The notes under the pieces are model-generated. The model had not been told where the DNA came from. It saw only the letters and a list, made by a program, of their open reading frames with translations, and did no database searches. Source: Streptomyces sp. NBC_00078 (lineage in GTDB: Bacteria; Actinomycetota; Actinomycetes; Streptomycetales; Streptomycetaceae). Taken from it: 64,000 bases of DNA. The position numbers and the translations under genes are program-made. The stretch is taken from NCBI RefSeq assembly GCF_026343335.1, contig NZ_JAPELX010000001.1:1736001-1800000 (forward strand), read 5' to 3'. Position 1 is the first letter of the stretch; each line of letters opens with the position of its first letter. Of the stretch, positions 44,502-55,259 are shown piece after piece.

Positions 44502-44681
44502 TGGCCGGCACTTGATCCACTCCGGGCAGCCCTCCTGGGTGGCCGATCAGCGGTGGGGAACCTAGCTTCGTACTAAAATTTCCGGCTTGTTACGGAACGG
44601 AGCTGGAGGAGGACAACCCCAGGCAGACCTGCGGGCCCACCAGCGCCCCGGAGTCTTCCGGGATCGAGACGCGAGGACCGG

Positions 44682-47600
44682 ATGGCAGCGATAGACGAGA
44701 GCAGTGCTCTCGGCCTGCTCGACGAAGAGCTCAGCGCAGAGATCCACCAGCAGTTCGGCGACACGGCGCGCTTTTCCGGAGGCCACGCGGCCTCCCGGCG
44801 CACGCTCGTCGACATCTTCGACGCATCCGTCAGGTCGTACCCGGACGAGCTCGCTCTCGATGACGGTACGACGCGGCTCACCTATCGTGCCCTGGCCGGC
44901 GAGGTCGAGCGGCTGCGGCGCGAGCTGGCCGCCGCAGGGGTCGGCCTGGGCGACCGGGTGGGGGTCCGCGTTCCCTCCGGCACCAACGACCTCTACGTCG
45001 CCATCCTCGCCGTGCTCGCCGCCGGTGCCGCCTATGTTCCCGTGGACGCCGAGGACCCGGACGAGCGGGCCGAGCTGGTCTTCGGCGAGGCGGACGTCCG
45101 CGCTGTCGTCGGCGCGGGGCACGCGCTCACCGTCAACGGGCGCAGCGACGTTCCCGCCGCCCGGCCCGGCGTCGAGCAGGACGCGTGGATCATCTTCACG
45201 TCCGGCTCCACCGGGAAGCCCAAGGGCGTCGCCGTCAGCCACCGCAGCGCCGCCGCGTTCGTGGATGCCGAGGCCGCGCTGTTCCTGACCGAGGACCCCA
45301 TCGGTCCCGCTGACAGGGTCATGGCGGGTCTGTCGGTCGCCTTCGACGCGTCCTGCGAGGAGATGTGGCTGGCGTGGCGCTACGGGGCGTGTCTGGTGCC
45401 CGTGCCCCGGTCGCAGGTCCGCAGCGGGGCCGACCTCGGTCCCTGGCTGGTCGAGCAGGAGATCACCGTCGTCTCGACGGTGCCCACGCTGGCGGCCCTG
45501 TGGGAGCCGGAGACCCTCAACGACGTACGCCTGCTGATCTTCGGCGGCGAGGCCTGCCCGCCCGAGCTGGTGCAGCGGCTGGTGACGGAGGGGCGCGAGG
45601 TCTGGAACACGTACGGGCCGACGGAGGCGACCGTCGTGGCCTGTGCCTCGCTCATGTCCGGCGAGGAGCCCATTCGGATCGGTCTGCCGCTCGACGGCTA
45701 CGAGCTGGCCGTCGTCGACGAGGCCGGGGAGCCCGTGCCGATGGGCGACAGCGGCCAGCTGGTGATCGGCGGGGTCGGGCTCGCCCGGTACCTCGACGCC
45801 GAGAAGGACGCGGAGAAGTACGCACCGCTCGAGTCCCTGGGCTGGGAGCGGGCGTACCGCAGCGGTGACCTCGTGAAGGCCGAGCCGGAGGGGCTGGTGT
45901 TCCTCGGGCGGGCCGACGAGCAGATCAAGCTCGGCGGGCGCCGGATCGAACTCGGTGAGGTGGACGCGGCCCTGCAGGCGCTGCCCGGCGTCCAGGGCGC
46001 CGCTGCCGCCGTGCGCACCGCGCGCAGCGGCAACCAGCTCCTCGTGGGCTACGTCGTCACCCAGGAGGGCTGGGACCACGCGGCCGCGGTCGAGAAGCTG
46101 CGCGCCGAGCTGCCCGCCGCGCTCGTCCCGCTGCTCGCGCCGGTCGGGGACCTCCCCACCCGCACGTCCGGCAAGGTCGACCGCAACGCTCTGCCCTGGC
46201 CCCTGGAGGGCCTGGAGACCGGCGGCCGTGCCGAGCAGCTCTACGGCACCGAGGCCTGGCTGGCCGAGCAGTGGACGGAAGTCCTCGGCATCCCGGTCTC
46301 CAGCGCCCGTGACGACTTCTTCGCGATCGGCGGCAGCAGCCTGGCCGCCGCCCAGCTGACGACGAAGCTGCGCACCCGCTACCCGAGCGCGGCCGTCCTC
46401 GACATCTACCAGCAGCCCACCCTGCGCAAGCTGGCGCGCCGGCTGGAGGCCTCGGTCCAGGACGACGGCGCCCGGCGCACGATCGCCCCGGTGCCGACCC
46501 GCGCCAAGGTGATCCAGCTGCTGCTTCTCGTCCCGCTTTTCACGCTGCTCGGGCTGCGCTGGACGGTCGCGCTCGCCGCGCTCGGGAACCTGCTGCCCGC
46601 CTACTCCTGGCTGCCGTCCGCCCCCTGGTGGCTGGTCGCGGCCGGCGCCGTCGTACTGTTCAGCCCGCCCGGACGGCTCGCGATCGCCGCCGGCGGTGCG
46701 CGGCTGCTGCTGCGGGGCGTCGAGCCCGGCCGGTACGCGCGCGGTGGCAGCGTCCATCTGCGGTTGTGGACCGCCGAGCGGCTGGCCGAGTTCAGCGGGG
46801 CGACCTCGCTGACCGGCTCGTGGCTGGAGCGCTACGCGCGGGCGCTGGGCGCCAGGATCGGCCAGGACGTCGACCTGCACTCGCTGCCGCCGGTCACCGG
46901 TCTGCTGAAGCTCGGCCGGGGCGCTGCCGTGGAGTCCGAGGTCGACCTGTCCGGCTGGTGGCTGGACGGCGACCGGCTGGAGATCGGCGCGGTCAGGGTC
47001 GGTGCGCACGCCACCGTCGGCACCCGCAGCATGCTCTTCCCGGGCGCCCGCGTGGGCAAGCGGGCCGAGGTGGCGCCGGGTTCGGCGGTCACCGGTCAGA
47101 TCCCGACCGGTCAGCGCTGGGCCGGTGCGCCCGCGGTCAAGCTCGGCAAGGCCAAGCGCAACTGGCCCAAGGAGCGTCCGCAGCGCGGCACGTACTGGCG
47201 TGTGATGTACGGCCTGACGGGCCTCGCGCTGACCGCGCTGCCGCTGCTCGCGGGCGGCGTCGCGTTCCTCGTGGCGCACGCCTTCATCGACGCGGACGCA
47301 CCCCTGCGGGGTGCCGCGCTCGCCCTCGTCCCGGCCACACTGGCGTTCGGGGCGGTGTACGCGCTGCTGATCCTCGTTGCCGTACGGCTGCTGAGTCTCG
47401 GCCTGCGTGAGGGCACGCATCCCACGCACAGCCGGATCGGCTGGCAGGCCTGGACGGTCACGCAGCTGATGGACCGCTCACGCGAGACCCTGTTCCCGCT
47501 GTACGCCGGGCTGGTCACGCCGGTGTGGCTGCGGCTGCTCGGCATGCGGATCGGGCGGGGCGCCGAGGTGTCCACGGTGCTCGCGCTGCCGAGCCTGACC

Positions 47601-48548
47601 ACGGTCGGCGAGGGCGCGTTCCTGGCCGACGACACACTGACCGCGCCGTACGAGCTCGGTGGCGGCTGGATGCGGATCGGGCGCGCGGAGATCGGGCGAC
47701 GGGCGTTCCTCGGGAACTCGGGGATGACCGCGCCGGGGCGCAGCGTGCCGGACGGCGGACTCGTCGGCGTGCTGTCGGCGACGCCGAAGAAGGCGAAGAA
47801 GGGCAGCTCGTACCTGGGCCTTCCGCCGGTGAAGCTGCCGCGCAGCGCGGAGACGGGCGACCAGAGCCTGACGTACGACCCGCCCGCGCGACTGCTGTGG
47901 GCGCGCGGCCTTGTGGAGCTGTTCCGGATCGTGCCGGTGTTCTGCTCGGCCGGCCTCGCGGTGCTGACGGTGGCGGCGCTGTGTCTGCTCGGCCCCTGGG
48001 CTCCCCTGCTGTCCGGTCTGGTGCTGCTGGGCACCGGCGCGGCAGCCGCTGTGGTCTCGTTCGTCGCCAAGTGGCTGCTCGTCGGGCGGCACCGCACCGG
48101 TGAGCACCCGCTGTGGAGCAGCTTCGTGTGGCGCAATGAACTCGCGGACACCTTCGTCGAGGTCGTGGCCGTACCGTGGCTGGCGGGTTCGGTGCCCGGG
48201 ACGCCGGTGATGACCGCGTGGCTGCGCGGTCTGGGCGCCACGATCGGCAAGGGCGTCTGGGTGGAGAGCTACTGGCTGCCCGAGACGGACCTGGTGACCC
48301 TGGAGGACGCGGCCACCGTGAACCGTGGCTGTGTGCTGCAGACCCACCTCTTCCACGACCGGATCTTGCGGACGGATACTGTTGTTCTCCGTGAGGGCGC
48401 CACACTGGGCCCTGGCGGGATCGTGCTGCCCGGCAGCACGATCGGGGCCCGCACCACGCTGGGTCCCGCGTCGCTCGTCATGGCTGCGGAGTCCGTTCCG
48501 GACGACACCCGTTGGCTCGGCAACCCGATCGAGGCATGGCGTCCCTGA
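44682..48548 (+). CDS. Pls/PosA-type NRPS-like synthetase (A-T-three membrane-linked tandem domains)
   Basis: 1288 residues, single module without a classical condensation or thioesterase domain. Adenylation domain (about 35-535): IIFTSGSTGKPKGVAVSHRS, FDASCEEMW, NTYGPTEATVV, YRSGDLV, GRADEQIKLGGRRIELGEVD, TRTSGKVDRNALPWP. Carrier domain: DDFFAIGGSSLAAAQL, phosphopantetheine Ser553. Then three hydrophobic helix pairs (about 605-660, 840-905, 1078-1135), each followed by a hexapeptide-repeat-like segment (about 725-810, 955-1030, 1185-1288). This is the epsilon-poly-lysine synthetase (Pls) layout, in which the three tandem domains form isopeptide bonds iteratively. My motif-based reading of the pocket residues is D-A-E-S-I-G-T-V-V-K; Glu at position 239 suits a basic amino acid. 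Product not proven. An M1 aminopeptidase gene overlaps its end. Confidence 0.88.
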   Translation: MAAIDESSALGLLDEELSAEIHQQFGDTARFSGGHAASRRTLVDIFDASVRSYPDELALDDGTTRLTYRALAGEVERLRRELAAAGVGLGDRVGVRVPSGTNDLYVAILAVLAAGAAYVPVDAEDPDERAELVFGEADVRAVVGAGHALTVNGRSDVPAARPGVEQDAWIIFTSGSTGKPKGVAVSHRSAAAFVDAEAALFLTEDPIGPADRVMAGLSVAFDASCEEMWLAWRYGACLVPVPRSQVRSGADLGPWLVEQEITVVSTVPTLAALWEPETLNDVRLLIFGGEACPPELVQRLVTEGREVWNTYGPTEATVVACASLMSGEEPIRIGLPLDGYELAVVDEAGEPVPMGDSGQLVIGGVGLARYLDAEKDAEKYAPLESLGWERAYRSGDLVKAEPEGLVFLGRADEQIKLGGRRIELGEVDAALQALPGVQGAAAAVRTARSGNQLLVGYVVTQEGWDHAAAVEKLRAELPAALVPLLAPVGDLPTRTSGKVDRNALPWPLEGLETGGRAEQLYGTEAWLAEQWTEVLGIPVSSARDDFFAIGGSSLAAAQLTTKLRTRYPSAAVLDIYQQPTLRKLARRLEASVQDDGARRTIAPVPTRAKVIQLLLLVPLFTLLGLRWTVALAALGNLLPAYSWLPSAPWWLVAAGAVVLFSPPGRLAIAAGGARLLLRGVEPGRYARGGSVHLRLWTAERLAEFSGATSLTGSWLERYARALGARIGQDVDLHSLPPVTGLLKLGRGAAVESEVDLSGWWLDGDRLEIGAVRVGAHATVGTRSMLFPGARVGKRAEVAPGSAVTGQIPTGQRWAGAPAVKLGKAKRNWPKERPQRGTYWRVMYGLTGLALTALPLLAGGVAFLVAHAFIDADAPLRGAALALVPATLAFGAVYALLILVAVRLLSLGLREGTHPTHSRIGWQAWTVTQLMDRSRETLFPLYAGLVTPVWLRLLGMRIGRGAEVSTVLALPSLTTVGEGAFLADDTLTAPYELGGGWMRIGRAEIGRRAFLGNSGMTAPGRSVPDGGLVGVLSATPKKAKKGSSYLGLPPVKLPRSAETGDQSLTYDPPARLLWARGLVELFRIVPVFCSAGLAVLTVAALCLLGPWAPLLSGLVLLGTGAAAAVVSFVAKWLLVGRHRTGEHPLWSSFVWRNELADTFVEVVAVPWLAGSVPGTPVMTAWLRGLGATIGKGVWVESYWLPETDLVTLEDAATVNRGCVLQTHLFHDRILRTDTVVLREGATLGPGGIVLPGSTIGARTTLGPASLVMAAESVPDDTRWLGNPIEAWRP

Positions 48549-49996
48549 ACGCGGGCCACTCGGAGCCGGTGGGCGTCGCATCGGCGACGAAGAGTGGCAG
48601 CGCAGCGCAGGGAGCAGAAGCGGCAGTGGCAGTTCAGCAGTCGGCGGGTTCGGACCCGTACTTCCCGGATCACGGTGACACCGGTTACCGGGTGCACCGG
48701 TACGAGCTCGCGCTCGATTACCGGCCGGGCCCCAACCGGCTGGCCGGGACGGCCCGGATCAACGCGATCGCGGGCCGTTCGCCGCTCGGCGAATTCACCC
48801 TGAACCTCTCCGACTTCAAGATCGGACGGGTCCGGGTCGACGGCCGGCAGCCGCACTACACGCATCGCGGCGGCCGGCTGCGCATCCGCCCCGCCAAGCC
48901 CGTCCGGCCCGGTGCCGCCTTCACCGTGGAGGTGCACTGGGCGGGCAACCCCAAGCCGGTCACCAGTCCCTGGGGCGGGCTCGGCTGGGAGGAGCTGGAG
49001 GACGGGGCGCTGGTGGCGAGCCAGCCGATCGGGGCGCCGTCCTGGTACCCGTGCAACGACCGGCCCGCCGACAAGGCGTCGTACCAGATCTCGATCACCA
49101 CGCCGTCCGCGTACGCGGTGGTGGCGGGCGGCAGGCTGCTGACCCGTACGACACGCGCGTCGACGACCACCTGGGTGTACGAGCAGTCGGCGCCCACGTC
49201 GAGCTACCTGGTGGGCCTGGCCATCGGCAAGTACGAGACGGTGCTGCTGGGTGACCCTGGGCCGGGCGGGGTGCCGCAGCACGGGCACATACCGGCGCAG
49301 CTGCTGCCTGAGTTCTCACGGGACTTCGCCCGGCAGCCGCAGATGATGGACGTGTTCCAGGAGCTTTTCGGCCCCTATCCGTTCGGCGAGTACGCGGTAG
49401 TGGTGACCGAGGAGGACCTGGATGTCCCCGTGGAGGCCCAGGGGTTGTCGCTGTTCGGCGCCAACCACGTGGACGGGGCGCGGGGTTCGGAGCGGCTGGT
49501 GGCGCACGAGCTGGCGCACCAGTGGTTCGGCAACAGCGTCTCCATCGCGGACTGGCGGCACATCTGGCTGAACGAGGGCTTCGCCAAGTACGCCGAGTGG
49601 CTGTGGTCGGAGCGCTCGGGCGGCCGTAGCGCGCAACAACTCGCGGCGGCCGCACACCGGTTGCTGTCCTCCCAGCCGCAGGATCTGCGGCTGGCCGATC
49701 CGGGACGCAAGTCGATGTTCGACGACCGTCTCTACGAGCGCGGCGGGCTGACCGTGCACGCGGTGCGCTGCGCGATGGGCGACGACGCCTTCTTCCGCAT
49801 GCTGCGTGCCTGGGCGGGGCTGCACCGCGGCGGCGCGGTGACGACCGCGACGTTCACGGCGCATGCGGCCCGGTTCGCGGACGAGCCGCTGGACGGCCTG
49901 TTCCAGGCCTGGGTGTACGGCGCGGCGCTGCCTTCGATGCCCACGCAGGTCCCGGCACGTCCCGCGCACCCGCCCACCAACGCCGAGTCGGCGTAG
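48536..49996 (+). CDS. M1-family zinc aminopeptidase
   Basis: 486 residues, short for M1. The N-terminal beta domain has YRVHRYELALDYRPGPNRLA; the catalytic part has GLSLFGANHVD in place of the usual GAMEN exopeptidase loop, then HELAHQWFGN (324-333) and the third zinc ligand Glu347 in WLNEGFAKY, a perfect HExxH-x18-E. The large C-terminal helical domain of ordinary PepN is missing. ATG 48536 overlaps the synthetase stop by 13 bases, so translation is coupled. From memory, epsilon-poly-lysine producers carry a polymer-degrading zinc aminopeptidase gene beside pls; this would be the matching partner. General peptidase activity is the alternative. Confidence 0.88.
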   Translation: MASLNAGHSEPVGVASATKSGSAAQGAEAAVAVQQSAGSDPYFPDHGDTGYRVHRYELALDYRPGPNRLAGTARINAIAGRSPLGEFTLNLSDFKIGRVRVDGRQPHYTHRGGRLRIRPAKPVRPGAAFTVEVHWAGNPKPVTSPWGGLGWEELEDGALVASQPIGAPSWYPCNDRPADKASYQISITTPSAYAVVAGGRLLTRTTRASTTTWVYEQSAPTSSYLVGLAIGKYETVLLGDPGPGGVPQHGHIPAQLLPEFSRDFARQPQMMDVFQELFGPYPFGEYAVVVTEEDLDVPVEAQGLSLFGANHVDGARGSERLVAHELAHQWFGNSVSIADWRHIWLNEGFAKYAEWLWSERSGGRSAQQLAAAAHRLLSSQPQDLRLADPGRKSMFDDRLYERGGLTVHAVRCAMGDDAFFRMLRAWAGLHRGGAVTTATFTAHAARFADEPLDGLFQAWVYGAALPSMPTQVPARPAHPPTNAESA

Positions 49997-50603: not shown

Positions 50604-51305
50604 CTAGGGAGCGAGGATGTCGAGTTCCTGAAGGGCCCCGACCGTGATCTCCCGGGTCAGCTGCTCGGCGCGTGCCGCGTCGCCCTCCCGGATCGCCTCG
50701 GCGACCTGGACGTGCAGGGTGACGGCGGACGGATCGGGATCCTCGAACATGACCTCGTGGTGGGTACGGCCCGCGAGGACCTCGGCGACGACGTCACCGA
50801 GCCGCGCGAACATCTCGTTCCCGGACGCGACGAGGACGACCCGGTGGAAGGCCATGTCGTGGACGAGGTACTGCTCCAGCCTGTGGCCGCGGGAGTTGGC
50901 GACCATGCCGAGCGTGCACGCGGTGAGTTCGGCGCACTGCTCGGCGGACGCGTGCCGGGCGGCCAGGCCTGCGGCGACCGGTTCGACGGCCGAGCGCAGG
51001 ACGGTCAGTGAGCGCAGCTGGTGGGGGCGGTCCGCGCCGGCCAGGCGCCAGCGGATGACCTGCGGGTCGTAGACGTTCCACTCGGACTTCGGGCGCACGG
51101 TCACGCCCACCCGTCGGCGTGACTCGACCAGGTGCATGGATTCGAGGACGCGCACCGCCTCGCGCATCACCGAGCGTGAGACGTCGAAGCGCTGGGCCAG
51201 CTCGTCGGTGCGCAGAACACTGCCCGGCGGGTACTCGCCCGCCGTGATGGCGGGTCCGAGGGAGTCCAGTACGCGGCCGTGCAGCCCCCGGCCCAGAGTG
51301 CTCAT
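50604..51305 (-). CDS. gntR: GntR-family (FadR type) gluconate operon regulator
   Basis: 233 residues. Winged HTH: LHGRVLDSLGPAITAGEYPP, RTDELAQRFDVSRSVMREAV, RVLESMHLVESRRRVGVTVR. FCD effector domain with RSAVEPVAAGLAARHASAEQ, VHDMAFHRVVLVASGNEMFA and LHVQVAEAIREGDAARAEQL, including metal-binding Asp/His residues. Divergent from gntK across 141 bases that hold palindromes, so it almost certainly controls the gluconate operon, with gluconate or its phosphate as effector. No ribosome site before ATG 51305; probably leaderless. Confidence 0.9.
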   Translation of the reverse strand: MSTLGRGLHGRVLDSLGPAITAGEYPPGSVLRTDELAQRFDVSRSVMREAVRVLESMHLVESRRRVGVTVRPKSEWNVYDPQVIRWRLAGADRPHQLRSLTVLRSAVEPVAAGLAARHASAEQCAELTACTLGMVANSRGHRLEQYLVHDMAFHRVVLVASGNEMFARLGDVVAEVLAGRTHHEVMFEDPDPSAVTLHVQVAEAIREGDAARAEQLTREITVGALQELDILAP

Positions 51306-51339
51306 GCACTCAGCGTACGGGGAGGTTTACAGAAACAAA

Positions 51340-51383
51340 AAGTCAGACTTATTCGTCACAGACCCTTGAATTGGTCGTACCTA
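51340..51383. promoter_or_regulatory. gntR-gntK operator region
   Basis: Two palindromic elements lie in the divergent promoter: AAGTC-A-GACTT (51340-51350) and TTGGTCGTACCTA (51371-51383), the latter fitting the GGT-N3-ACC core that many FadR-type regulators bind. The gap is AT-rich and must hold both promoters. Confidence 0.5.
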
Positions 51384-51446
51384 ATCGGTTTCAGTGTCGT
51401 CGACGCCGGATGGCGTCCAGATGTCGAAGAAGACAGTGAGAGCACG

Positions 51447-51974
51447 ATGCAGCAGCTGCGCACCCCCCATGTCGTCGTGGTCATGGGCGTCGCGGGCACC
51501 GGCAAGACCACCATCGGTCCCCTGCTCGCGGCCCGTCTCGGTGTTCCGTACGCCGAGGGCGACGACTTCCACCCCCAGGCCAATATCGCCAAGATGTCGG
51601 CCGGGACCCCGCTCCAGGACGAGGACCGGTGGCCCTGGCTCGACGCCATCGGCACCTGGGCGCACGGGAGGGCCGGACTCGGCGGGGTGGTCAGCAGCTC
51701 GGCGCTGAAGCGGTCCTACCGGGACCGGCTCAGGGCCGTCGCCCCCGGTGTCGTCTTCGTGCACCTGACGGGCGACCGTGCCCTCATCGAGGAGCGGATG
51801 TCGCACCGGCAGGGCCACTTCATGCCCACGGCGCTGCTCGACTCCCAGTTCGCCACGCTCCAGCCGCTTCAGCCGGACGAGGCAGGCATCGCGGTGGACG
51901 TCACCGGCAGCCCCGAGGAGATCGCCGCACGGGCCGTGAAGGCGCTGGACGCGCTCCCCCACCCGGCGGGGTAG
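51447..51974 (+). CDS. gntK: Gluconokinase GntK
   Basis: 175-residue P-loop kinase making 6-phosphogluconate from gluconate and ATP. Walker A VVVMGVAGTGKTTIGPLLAA, substrate loop EGDDFHPQANIAKMSAGTPL, DEDRWPWL, VSSSALKRSYRDRLR, and lid region EERMSHRQGHFMPTALLDSQ are all typical gluconokinase signatures. ATG 51447 is chosen as it places the P-loop at the N-terminus; a weak GTGAGAG precedes it. First gene of the gntK-gntP-SDR-idnD operon. Confidence 0.94.
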   Translation: MQQLRTPHVVVVMGVAGTGKTTIGPLLAARLGVPYAEGDDFHPQANIAKMSAGTPLQDEDRWPWLDAIGTWAHGRAGLGGVVSSSALKRSYRDRLRAVAPGVVFVHLTGDRALIEERMSHRQGHFMPTALLDSQFATLQPLQPDEAGIAVDVTGSPEEIAARAVKALDALPHPAG

Positions 51975-52031
51975 CACCTCCCGGTCCCCTCCCTCGAACT
52001 CCCCGTCCCTCATACCTGCAAGGACACCCCT

Positions 52032-53429
52032 GTGACCAGACTCAGCGTCGAGATCCTGGCAGCGGACGCACCGGCACCGATCACCTCGGCCGGTCACGCT
52101 CAGCTGGGCATCGCCGTTCTGGTGGGCATCGCCGTCATCGTCGTGCTCATCACCAGGTTCAAGCTCCACGCCTTTCTGTCCCTGACCATCGGTTCACTGG
52201 TGCTCGGCGCCGTCGCGGGGGCCCCGCTCGACAAGGTGATCCTCAGCTTCAGCACCGGGCTCGGCGCCACGGTCGCCGGCGTGGGCGTGCTGATCGCCCT
52301 CGGCGCGATCCTCGGCAAGATGCTCGCCGACTCCGGCGGTGCCGACGAGATCGTCGACACGATCCTCGCGAAGGCGGGCGGCCGGGCGATGCCCTGGGCG
52401 ATGGTGCTGATCGCCTCGGTGATCGGTCTGCCCCTGTTCTTCGAGGTCGGCATCGTGCTGCTGATCCCGGTCGTGCTGATGGTCGCCAAGCGCGGCAACT
52501 ACTCCCTGATGCGCATCGGCATCCCGGCCCTGGCGGGCCTGTCCGTGATGCACGGCCTGATCCCGCCGCACCCCGGCCCGCTGGTCGCGATCGACGCGGT
52601 GGGGGCCAACCTCGGTGTCACGCTGGCGCTCGGCATCCTCGTCGCCATCCCGACGGTGATCATCGCCGGTCCGCTGTTCTCGAAGGTCGCGGCCCGCTGG
52701 GTGGACGCCCCGGTCCCCGACCGGATGCTGCCGCCGCGCGCCTCCGAGGAGCTGAAGAACCGCCCCGGCTTCGGCGCCACCCTGGGCACCATGCTGCTGC
52801 CGGTCGTGCTGATGCTGGCCAAGGCACTGGTCGACATCGTCATCGACGACCCCGAGAACCGCACCCAGCGCGTCTTCGACGTCATCGGCAATCCGCTGAT
52901 CGCTCTCCTCGCGGCCGTGCTCCTCGGCATCTTCACGCTGCTGCGGCCCGCCGGCTTCGGCAGGGAGCGGCTCACCCCGCTCGTCGAGAAGGGCCTCGCG
53001 CCCATCGCCGGCATTCTGCTGATCGTCGGCGCGGGCGGCGGCTTCAAGCAGACGCTGATCGACTCCGGCGTGGGCCAGATGATCCTGGACATCTCCAAGG
53101 ACTGGTCGATCCCGGCGCTGCTGCTGGCCTGGCTGATCGCGGTGGCCATCCGCCTGGCGACCGGCTCGGCGACGGTGGCGACGGTCTCGGCGGCCGGCCT
53201 GGTCGCCCCGCTCGCGGCCGACATGTCGACCGCCCACACCGCGCTCCTCGTCCTGGCCATCGGCGCCGGCTCGCTCTTCTTCAGCCATGTCAACGACGCG
53301 GGATTCTGGCTGGTCAAGGAGTACTTCGGCCTCAGCGTCGGCGAGACCCTGAAGACCTGGTCCGTCATGGAGACGATCATCTCGGTGGTCGCCGGCGGTC
53401 TGGTCCTGCTCCTCTCGCTGGTCATCTAG
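52032..53429 (+). CDS. gntP: Gluconate:H+ symporter GntP family
   Basis: 465-residue permease with about 12-14 membrane helices. Family motifs: FKLHAFLSLTIGSLVLGAVA, LGAILGKMLADSGGADEIVD, LPLFFEVGIVLLIPVVLMVA, HGLIPPHPGPLVAIDAVGAN, ATGSATVATVSAAGLVAPLA and FFSHVNDAGFWLVKEYFGLS. The HGLIPPHPGP element is characteristic of GntP transporters. GTG start, 57 bases after gntK. Imports gluconate and possibly idonate. Confidence 0.94.
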   Translation: MTRLSVEILAADAPAPITSAGHAQLGIAVLVGIAVIVVLITRFKLHAFLSLTIGSLVLGAVAGAPLDKVILSFSTGLGATVAGVGVLIALGAILGKMLADSGGADEIVDTILAKAGGRAMPWAMVLIASVIGLPLFFEVGIVLLIPVVLMVAKRGNYSLMRIGIPALAGLSVMHGLIPPHPGPLVAIDAVGANLGVTLALGILVAIPTVIIAGPLFSKVAARWVDAPVPDRMLPPRASEELKNRPGFGATLGTMLLPVVLMLAKALVDIVIDDPENRTQRVFDVIGNPLIALLAAVLLGIFTLLRPAGFGRERLTPLVEKGLAPIAGILLIVGAGGGFKQTLIDSGVGQMILDISKDWSIPALLLAWLIAVAIRLATGSATVATVSAAGLVAPLAADMSTAHTALLVLAIGAGSLFFSHVNDAGFWLVKEYFGLSVGETLKTWSVMETIISVVAGGLVLLLSLVI

Positions 53430-53439
53430 GAGTACGAGG

Positions 53440-54198
53440 ATGAGTCATCCCCTGTTCGACGTCAGCGGCCGCACGGCCCTGGTCACCGGCTCCAGCCGCG
53501 GCATCGGTCTCGCCCTCGCCCGGGGCCTCGCGGAGGCCGGCTGCACGGTGGTCCTCAACGGCCGCGACGCCGGCCGTCTCACCACGGCGGCCACGGAGCT
53601 GCCCGGCGACGTCCACACGGCCGTGTTCGACGTGACCGACGGCCCGTCCGTCGCCGCGGGGATCGCGGACGTCGAGGAGCGGGTCGGCCCGCTCGACATC
53701 CTCGTCAACAACGCGGGCGTGCAACTGCGCGCCCCGCTCCTGGAGTTCACGGACGCGGACTGGCACCGCATCCTGGACACCAACCTCACCAGCGCGTTCC
53801 TGGTCGGCCGTGAGGCGGCCCGCCGGATGACGGAACGCGGCCACGGCAAGATCGTGAACATCTGCTCGCTGCAGAGCGAGGTGGTCCGCCCCGGCATCGC
53901 ACCCTACGCGGCCACCAAGGGCGCCCTGAAGATGCTCACCAAGGGCATGTGCGCGGACTGGGGCCCGTACGGCGTGCAGGTCAACGGGTTGGGACCGGGG
54001 TACATCGAGACGGACCTGACCAGGCCCCTCGTCGAGGACGAGGAGTTCAGCGCCTGGGTGCGCCGCCGCACACCGGCCGGCCGCTGGGGCCGCACCGAGG
54101 ACCTGGTGGGCGGGGTGCTGTTCCTCGCCTCGCCCGCCGCGGACTTCGTCAGCGGACAGGTGCTGTATGTCGACGGCGGAATGACGAGCGTGCTGTGA
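53440..54198 (+). CDS. SDR dehydrogenase, gluconate 5-dehydrogenase (IdnO-like)
   Basis: 252-residue classical short-chain dehydrogenase. Cofactor motif ALVTGSSRGIGLALARGLAE, NNAG in DILVNNAGVQLRAPLLEFTD, catalytic Ser in NICSLQSEVVRPGIAPYAAT with Tyr and Lys in YAATKGALK, and C-terminal NGLGPGYIETDLTRPLVEDE. The opening LFDVSGRTALVTGSSRGIG and its place in a gluconate cluster suggest 5-ketogluconate/gluconate interconversion. GGAG precedes ATG by about 10 bases; gap to gntP is 10 bases. Confidence 0.88.
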   Translation: MSHPLFDVSGRTALVTGSSRGIGLALARGLAEAGCTVVLNGRDAGRLTTAATELPGDVHTAVFDVTDGPSVAAGIADVEERVGPLDILVNNAGVQLRAPLLEFTDADWHRILDTNLTSAFLVGREAARRMTERGHGKIVNICSLQSEVVRPGIAPYAATKGALKMLTKGMCADWGPYGVQVNGLGPGYIETDLTRPLVEDEEFSAWVRRRTPAGRWGRTEDLVGGVLFLASPAADFVSGQVLYVDGGMTSVL

Positions 54199-54212
54199 GA
54201 GAGCCTGCTGAC

Positions 54213-55259
54213 ATGACGGAGATGCCCGGCTGCGTGATCCACGGTCGGGGAGACCTGCGGGTCGACCGGCTGCCGGTCCCGGAGCCCGGCCCCGGGCAGG
54301 CCCTGATCGCCGTCCGCTACGGCGGCGTCTGCGGCTCCGACCTGCACTACTGGCGGCACGGAGGGGTCGGCGACTTCCGCCTGAGGGAGCCGATGCTGCT
54401 CGGGCACGAGGTGGTCGGGACGGTCCTGGCGTACGGCTCCCCGGACGCGTCGGGTCCGGACGTCGGTACGGCGGTGGCCGTGCACCCCGCGACTCCTTGC
54501 GGTTCGTGCCCGGAATGCGCGGCCGGACGCCACAACGTCTGCCGGGACACCCGCTACCTGGGCAGCGCGGCGCGCTTCCCGCACGTACAGGGTGGTTTCG
54601 CGGCCCAAGTGGCTGTACCGGTCGGGCAGTTGAGGCCGCTCCCGGAGGGCCTCGAACTGCGGCGGGCGGCGCTCGCCGAGCCGCTGTCCGTCGCCCTGCA
54701 CGCGGTGCGGCGGGCCGGGGAGGTGAGCGGACGGCATGTGCTGGTCACCGGTGCCGGCCCCATCGGGTGCCTCGTGGTCGCCGCGGCGAAGGCGGTGGGT
54801 GCGGCACGGGTGACGGTCACCGACCTTCTCCCGGCGGCTCTGGAGTACGCGCGTGCCGCCGGCGCGGACACCGTCGTACGGGCCGACGATCCGGCCGACG
54901 CCGGGTGGCCGTCCGAGGCGGACGAGGTGGACGCGGCCGTCGAGGCGTCCGGGGTGGCCGCGGGCCTCGACACCTGTCTGCGTCTGGTGCGGCGCGGCGG
55001 GGTCGTCGTACAGCTGGGGATGCTGCCGCCCGGGCCGAGTCCTTTCGCCGGGAACCTCGTCGTGAGCCGGGAGATCGAGCTGCGGGGAGCGTTCCGCTTC
55101 GACACCGAGTTCGACGAGGCGCTGCGGCTGCTCGCCGCCGAGCCCGCCTTCGACGGGCTGGTCAGCGCGGTGGTGCCGGTGACGGACGCCGAGGCGGCGT
55201 TCGTGCTCGCCGCGGACCGGAGCCGGTCCTGCAAGGTCCTGTTGGACTTCGGTGCCTGA
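54213..55259 (+). CDS. idnD: Zinc-dependent L-idonate 5-dehydrogenase-like enzyme
   Basis: 348-residue medium-chain dehydrogenase. Catalytic zinc ligands in YGGVCGSDLHYWRHGGVGDF and GHEVVG; structural zinc cysteines CGSCPECAAGRHNVC; NAD(P) motif VLVTGAGPIGCLVVAAAKAV. The GSDLHYWRHGGVGDFRLREP stretch is typical of L-idonate 5-dehydrogenases. Together with the neighbouring SDR it would turn idonate into 5-ketogluconate and then gluconate for GntK. ATG 54213, 14 bases after the SDR stop. Last gene of the operon. Confidence 0.87.
   Translation: MTEMPGCVIHGRGDLRVDRLPVPEPGPGQALIAVRYGGVCGSDLHYWRHGGVGDFRLREPMLLGHEVVGTVLAYGSPDASGPDVGTAVAVHPATPCGSCPECAAGRHNVCRDTRYLGSAARFPHVQGGFAAQVAVPVGQLRPLPEGLELRRAALAEPLSVALHAVRRAGEVSGRHVLVTGAGPIGCLVVAAAKAVGAARVTVTDLLPAALEYARAAGADTVVRADDPADAGWPSEADEVDAAVEASGVAAGLDTCLRLVRRGGVVVQLGMLPPGPSPFAGNLVVSREIELRGAFRFDTEFDEALRLLAAEPAFDGLVSAVVPVTDAEAAFVLAADRSRSCKVLLDFGA

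Follow-up and report, generated by a model that had tools for sequence, protein, structure and literature searches.

In Streptomyces albulus, the synthetase gene pls is translationally coupled to the gene pldII, which is needed for self-protection according to the available part of PMC9223678. The pls-pldII arrangement has been published (PMC8117764, PMC9223678), and the synthetase of Corynebacterium variabile resembles the one described below in its layout and its peptidase operon. The C. variabile protein is 51% identical to S. albulus Pls; its product was verified by expression in S. coelicolor, and its gene is silent in its own host (PMC8117764). The accessible text of PMC7179176 also gives 51% identity to S. 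albulus Pls for the epsilon-poly-L-lysine synthetase of Epichloe festucae. Here, we describe a gene pair found in a 64,000-nucleotide stretch of Streptomyces sp. NBC_00078 (contig NZ_JAPELX010000001.1, positions 1,736,001 to 1,800,000; the window), in which a synthetase gene of the Pls type is overlapped by an M1 metallopeptidase gene.

Our analysis suggested, with a probability of about 0.86, that this pair is a pls-pldII operon whose product is epsilon-poly-L-lysine and whose M1 peptidase degrades the polymer. It is probably a Streptomyces copy of the gene pair known from organisms that produce epsilon-poly-lysine, which is used as a food preservative, and not a new polymer system. We infer the substrate, the product, and the role of the peptidase from the literature. 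Specifically, the adenylation (A) domain would activate L-lysine as lysyl-AMP and load the carrier domain, and the membrane-embedded C1-C3 region would join lysines repeatedly by isopeptide bonds between epsilon-amino and alpha-carboxyl groups to give epsilon-poly-L-lysine. The coupled M1 peptidase would degrade the polymer, chiefly for self-protection and possibly to set its length.

Family, layout, and pocket of the synthetase

The synthetase matched TIGR02353, which NCBI names the Pls/PosA family non-ribosomal peptide synthetase (NRPS), at 841.7 bits (cut-off, 423.1). Residues 610 to 1283 covered the full profile (1-695 of 695), and no other protein in the source genome scored above the cut-off. 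Pfam matches on the protein consisted of PF00501, PF00550, and a Hexapep stretch; AMP-binding_C fell under its cut-off, and no Condensation or Thioesterase domain was found with Pfam at E 0.001. The serine of a carrier domain is the attachment residue for phosphopantetheine, and it was located here by its motif position. Hydropathy revealed hydrophobic segments that were paired three times in the C-terminal region, as well as one extra segment in the A domain (residues 103-124).

An AlphaFold model built with 40 aligned sequences (mean pLDDT, 91.6; pTM, 0.91) had three helical parts with hexapeptide-type strands after each, and six transmembrane helices were predicted around the three C units, as in epsilon-poly-L-lysine synthetase. 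The third C unit was represented by a single 51-residue helix in the secondary-structure listing, without a clean hairpin. The best matches of the model in the PDB were hexapeptide acyltransferases, and these were weak (E about 1e-3; 14 matches at E ≤0.001). The published PosA model agrees with the C-terminal layout seen here (PMC10522769). An earlier note, made from the letters of this DNA, had described a 1288-residue Pls-like protein with adenylation and carrier domains, three helix-pair and hexapeptide units, and neither a classical condensation domain nor a thioesterase. The profile, Pfam, hydropathy, and model results bore this description out, including the relationship of the C-terminal units to Pls C1-C3.

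The best PDB match of the A domain was 7wew, an epsilon-poly-L-lysine synthase (E 1.5e-191; 66.7% identity over 465 aligned residues). The 7wew record gives the molecule name alone. In the same alignment columns, the window synthetase and 7wew had the identical pocket code, DAESIGTVVK (the lysine code). Our loci alignment retained 148 of 201 sequences, the window included, after the short L001-L033 and L114-L133 had been left out (L numbers denote loci, and G numbers denote genomes). L143 and L148 are apparently one locus and were counted separately. The lysine code was common to 137 of 146 aligned rows, with the window and 7wew included. The nine other rows carried DFECLSAVTK (three rows), DFEYLGTVTK (two rows), or DFEYIGTVTK, DMEHNGTVSK, DLEDIGTVVK, and DAESVGTVVK (one row each). 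One of them, L153 (DAESVGTVVK), was a one-residue variant in the group of the window, and the other eight were distant homologues with 30-36% identity. The L146 gene, which has the DFECLSAVTK code, adjoins diaminobutyrate transaminase and aspartate kinase genes.

The mapping of the pocket columns is sound because the PosA homologue L144 yielded DMEHNGTVSK, the published PosA code, in these same columns. PosA, a delta-poly-L-ornithine synthetase, resembles the window synthetase in family and layout but differs in its code and in its low identity (31.4% for L144), and no M1 gene was found within 988 bases after the L144 synthetase. The ten pocket residues read in the earlier note were confirmed by this mapping, and the cationic substrate proposed there was supported.

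The resemblance to beta-lysine codes that the same note had pointed to did not hold up. The pocket has Glu239 and Ala236, as for lysine, and six of its ten positions agree with DGESISVVNK, the published code of a poly-beta-lysine synthetase, but the two codes differ at positions 236, 301, 322, and 331 (PMC10522769). Moreover, a lysine-2,3-aminomutase gene would be expected next to an epsilon-poly-beta-lysine synthetase gene, and the KamA-family model TIGR00238, the one aminomutase model that was tried, had no match in the source genome; the same search did find matches in 9 of the 14 control genomes. Because the code is four positions off and TIGR00238 found no match, we rejected epsilon-poly-beta-lysine as the product and regard it as extremely improbable.

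The M1 gene and its coupling to pls

The 13-base overlap between the two genes, which the earlier note had pointed out, was confirmed. A start at TTG 48512 would lengthen the M1 protein to 494 residues. Among the 54 named relatives whose identity was 75% or more, 34 had an in-frame M1 start at exactly -13, and 52 of the 133 rows that have an M1 gene had a start at -4. Since the -13 start recurs in these relatives, the overlap is not a matter of chance. The nearest PDB chain to the M1 protein was 6a8z, a zinc metalloprotease, and we take the HELAH-x18-E motif to be the M1 zinc site.

An M1 gene lay downstream of the synthetase gene in all 80 of the closest named relatives (best 80 of 591) and in 14 of 14 further loci of the same genus. 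It was also present in 34 of 40 class-wide loci that were picked by hand from the matches listed (including L171, with a broken M1 gene, and L180, with a distant one) and in 4 of 13 plasmid-collection loci. Overall, 133 of 148 rows had the gene, and none was found in 15.

Phylogenetic analysis placed 130 of 132 pls-linked M1 proteins, including that of the window, in one clade (support, 0.983) that excluded seven paralogues from the same genome. The tree was built without the broken L171 protein (73 residues). The two exceptions were L180, whose M1 gene lies about 850 bases on and whose protein grouped with the paralogues, and L151, which probably fell outside the clade as a result of trimming. 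These data bear on whether the M1 protein might be a general aminopeptidase that merely adjoins pls. The source genome does hold 11 further matches to it, of which seven were compared and six aligned at 29-39% identity. However, the conserved overlap, the presence of the gene after pls in the relatives, and the pls-linked clade led us to reject chance adjacency, and they make a general aminopeptidase very unlikely.

The position directly after pls and the coupling are as described for PldII, and the M1 proteins of S. albulus-type loci share the clade of the window protein. The window M1 protein was 44-48% identical to those of S. albulus-type L134, L143, L147-L152, and L154-L156, and it has VEAQG in a motif that reads VENQT in L134 and L147. 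The overlap differs as well: the plasmid record of L134 shows an "epsilon-poly-L-lysine synthase Pls" gene overlapped by 4 bases by an "M1 family metallopeptidase" gene, and the L147 start is also at 4, in contrast to the 13 bases in the window. The assignment of PldII to the M1 enzymes rests on the L134 annotation and on the S. albulus-type loci; the available portions of the papers say aminopeptidase or metallopeptidase. The earlier note had proposed that the coupled peptidase was of a type reported from producers, which the published arrangement bears out.

In the part of PMC9223678 that is available, repression of pldII lowered the polymer tolerance of the strain and lengthened the product. 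Self-protection by degradation is better supported as a role of PldII than is length control.

Relation to proven synthetases

Over 1243 positions, the window synthetase shared 56.6-56.9% identity with S. albulus-type Pls (L148 and L147), and the A domains of L147 and L148 were 94.4% and 93.5% identical to 7wew, respectively. The two kinds of synthetase are alike in their A-T-C1-C2-C3 layout, hydrophobic helix pairs, pocket code, and coupled peptidase gene, but their identity of about 57% sets them apart, as does membership in separate groups that are able to coexist. In the synthetase tree, which was built without L138 (interrupted frame), L196, and L072, the lysine-code rows came together. 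The S. albulus-type proteins and three relatives made up one group with 15 members (support, 0.998), and the window protein lay outside it, in a group of 120 (support, 0.996) that included plasmid proteins of Rhodococcus (L136) and Mycobacterium (L137) and in which every member but the variant L153 had the lysine code. The relative from the Rhodococcus opacus plasmid was 60% identical to the window synthetase. The 7wew A domain was the sole verified synthetase in the tree; C. variabile Pls and the S. hindustanus synthetase lay outside its scope.

The undescribed cationic homopolymer that the earlier note had proposed was not supported, given the 7wew pocket code and the published pls-pldII arrangement. 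One form of this idea is that the pocket is lysine-like but that the C-terminal region selects otherwise, or yields a chain that is mixed or capped. The available part of PMC4668381 suggests that selection by the PDAP synthetase also involves regions beyond its A domain, and the group of the window is a separate clade whose C region is 52.5-53.4% identical to those of L148 and L147. On the other hand, the code and the C-region motifs are those of S. albulus-type synthetases, and the coupled peptidases belong to one clade. Furthermore, inspection by eye revealed no evident precursor-pathway gene beside the pair, the neighbors not having been searched against family libraries. We consider a different polymer of this kind to be clearly unlikely.

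Several points weigh against a pls-pldII operon that makes epsilon-poly-L-lysine. Judged by sequence, the group of the window is distinct from S. albulus Pls. Two synthetase matches occurred in 7 of 168 matching genomes, and in G390, where both were examined, there was one from each group (L152, of the S. albulus type, and L153). NCBI gives the name "epsilon-poly-L-lysine synthase Pls" to the S. albulus-type L134 and the family name only to L135-L137, which belong to the group of the window. In the open-licence papers searched, neither an experiment on this synthetase or its orthologous group nor a proven product was found. For eight rows with the lysine code (L136, L137, L139, L140, L161, L162, L163, and L198), a search of the vicinity found no M1 gene, so the coupling of pls to the M1 gene is strong but not universal. 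In addition, PldII is described as lying outside the membrane in the available part of PMC9223678, and the N-terminus of the window M1 protein had no hydrophobic segment by hydropathy (maximum 19-residue mean of 0.42 in the first 65 residues). Finally, length control by PldII is disputed. The accessible text of PMC8506220 cites Yamanaka 2010 for production and length being unaffected when Pld and PldII were inactivated, and that of PMC3937719 cites the same work for length not being set by degrading enzymes.

It is also conceivable, though doubtful, that the group of the window makes a poly-lysine that is retained by the cell and has a housekeeping role in the envelope or under stress, in place of a secreted antibiotic, and that the non-secreted-looking peptidase recycles it. 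A 7wew-like A domain (E ≤1e-100) was present in 168 of 392 genomes of the genus, and in 23 of these 168 it was at least 75% identical to 7wew; the group of the window is apparently commoner in the genus than S. albulus-type Pls.

Other features and distribution

The features of the gene pair are listed in Table 1. The 110 bases 5' of the synthetase start were well kept across 39 aligned sequences, the window included, which suggests that they may contain a promoter and leader.

Table 1. Features of the pls-M1 gene pair (positions in the window)
Feature	Positions	Strand	Basis
Conserved leader and ribosome-binding region, possible promoter (putative)	44572..44681	+	39-sequence alignment that includes the window
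pls, Pls/PosA-family NRPS-like synthetase, 1288 aa	44682..48548	+	TIGR02353 profile match
Adenylation domain, residues 34-509, code DAESIGTVVK	44781..46208	+	PF00501; 7wew match
Carrier (T) domain, residues 526-588, phosphopantetheine Ser553 in GGSS	46257..46445	+	PF00550; motif position
Polymerisation region C1-C3, three hydrophobic segment pairs	46509..48530	+	TIGR02353 residues 610-1283; hydropathy; model
C3 motif E1201-x-D1203 ... Q1220-T-H1222-L-F-x-D-R1227, candidate catalytic centre	48282..48362	+	Alignment conservation
pldII-type M1 metallopeptidase, 486 aa from ATG 48536, 13-base overlap with pls	48536..49996	+	PF01433/PF17900; placement in the pls-linked M1 clade (support, 0.983)
Presumed M1 zinc site HELAH-x18-E (His324, His328, Glu347 from ATG 48536)	49505..49576	+	Alignment

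Across the 145 aligned rows, Glu1201 and His1222 of the C3 motif were invariant, and D1203, Q1220, T1221, D1226, and R1227 were identical in 144. We propose from this conservation that the third C unit may be the catalytic one. The conserved residues of the tandem domains were reportedly studied by Kito in 2013. TIGR02353 proteins that lack an A domain also occur in genomes of the genus; these consist of a carrier domain and C1-C3 in frames of about 850-1100 residues (L201 and L202, and also L004, L007, L018, L020, L030, L031, and L033). In L201 and L202, the QTHLFxDR motif is replaced by QCHSQEDG, and the gene adjoins an NRPS gene of A-T-thioesterase layout, in which a condensation match was partial and fell below the cut-off. 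The L202 gene also lies beside SbnA-like and ornithine-cyclodeaminase-like genes for 2,3-diaminopropionate, and the L201 gene lies beside a TauD-type oxygenase gene.

The closest named relatives of the synthetase were Streptomyces proteins with 90-92% identity (best 80 of 591). Of 295 genomes of the genus, 172 had a TIGR02353 match above the cut-off, with forms lacking an A domain counted. A whole-protein match (E ≤1e-150) was present in 99 of 394 genomes of the class, representing 33 of 137 genera; a few of these were distant (36-45% identity). The available part of PMC10749237 assigns the NAPAA cluster of S. justiciae WPN32 to epsilon-Poly-L-lysine with 100% similarity. The window synthetase and that of a different S. 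justiciae strain (L076) shared 91% identity, and the two S. justiciae loci are presumably the same. An epsilon-Poly-L-lysine cluster (100%) is likewise given for S. naphthomycinicus in the accessible text of PMC11061393.

Two plasmid homologues had features of their own. In the Mycobacterium intracellulare plasmid homologue L137 (3866-7846), which has the lysine code and no M1 gene found nearby, the synthetase gene overlaps a cysteine-synthase-like gene, and a large NRPS gene is near. The homologue on the plasmid of Arthrobacter sp. StoSoilB13 (L138) has an interrupted reading frame. Downstream of the pair in the window (50604-55259), a gluconate/idonate-type set was recognized by eye, with a GntR-type regulator, a kinase, a permease, and dehydrogenases; it is apparently unrelated to the operon.

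By analogy with C. variabile in its own host, pls may be silent in the source strain. The DAESIGTVVK code, usually with a coupled peptidase, is widespread among actinobacteria, and a silent operon for epsilon-poly-L-lysine is therefore probably present in many strains outside the known producers.

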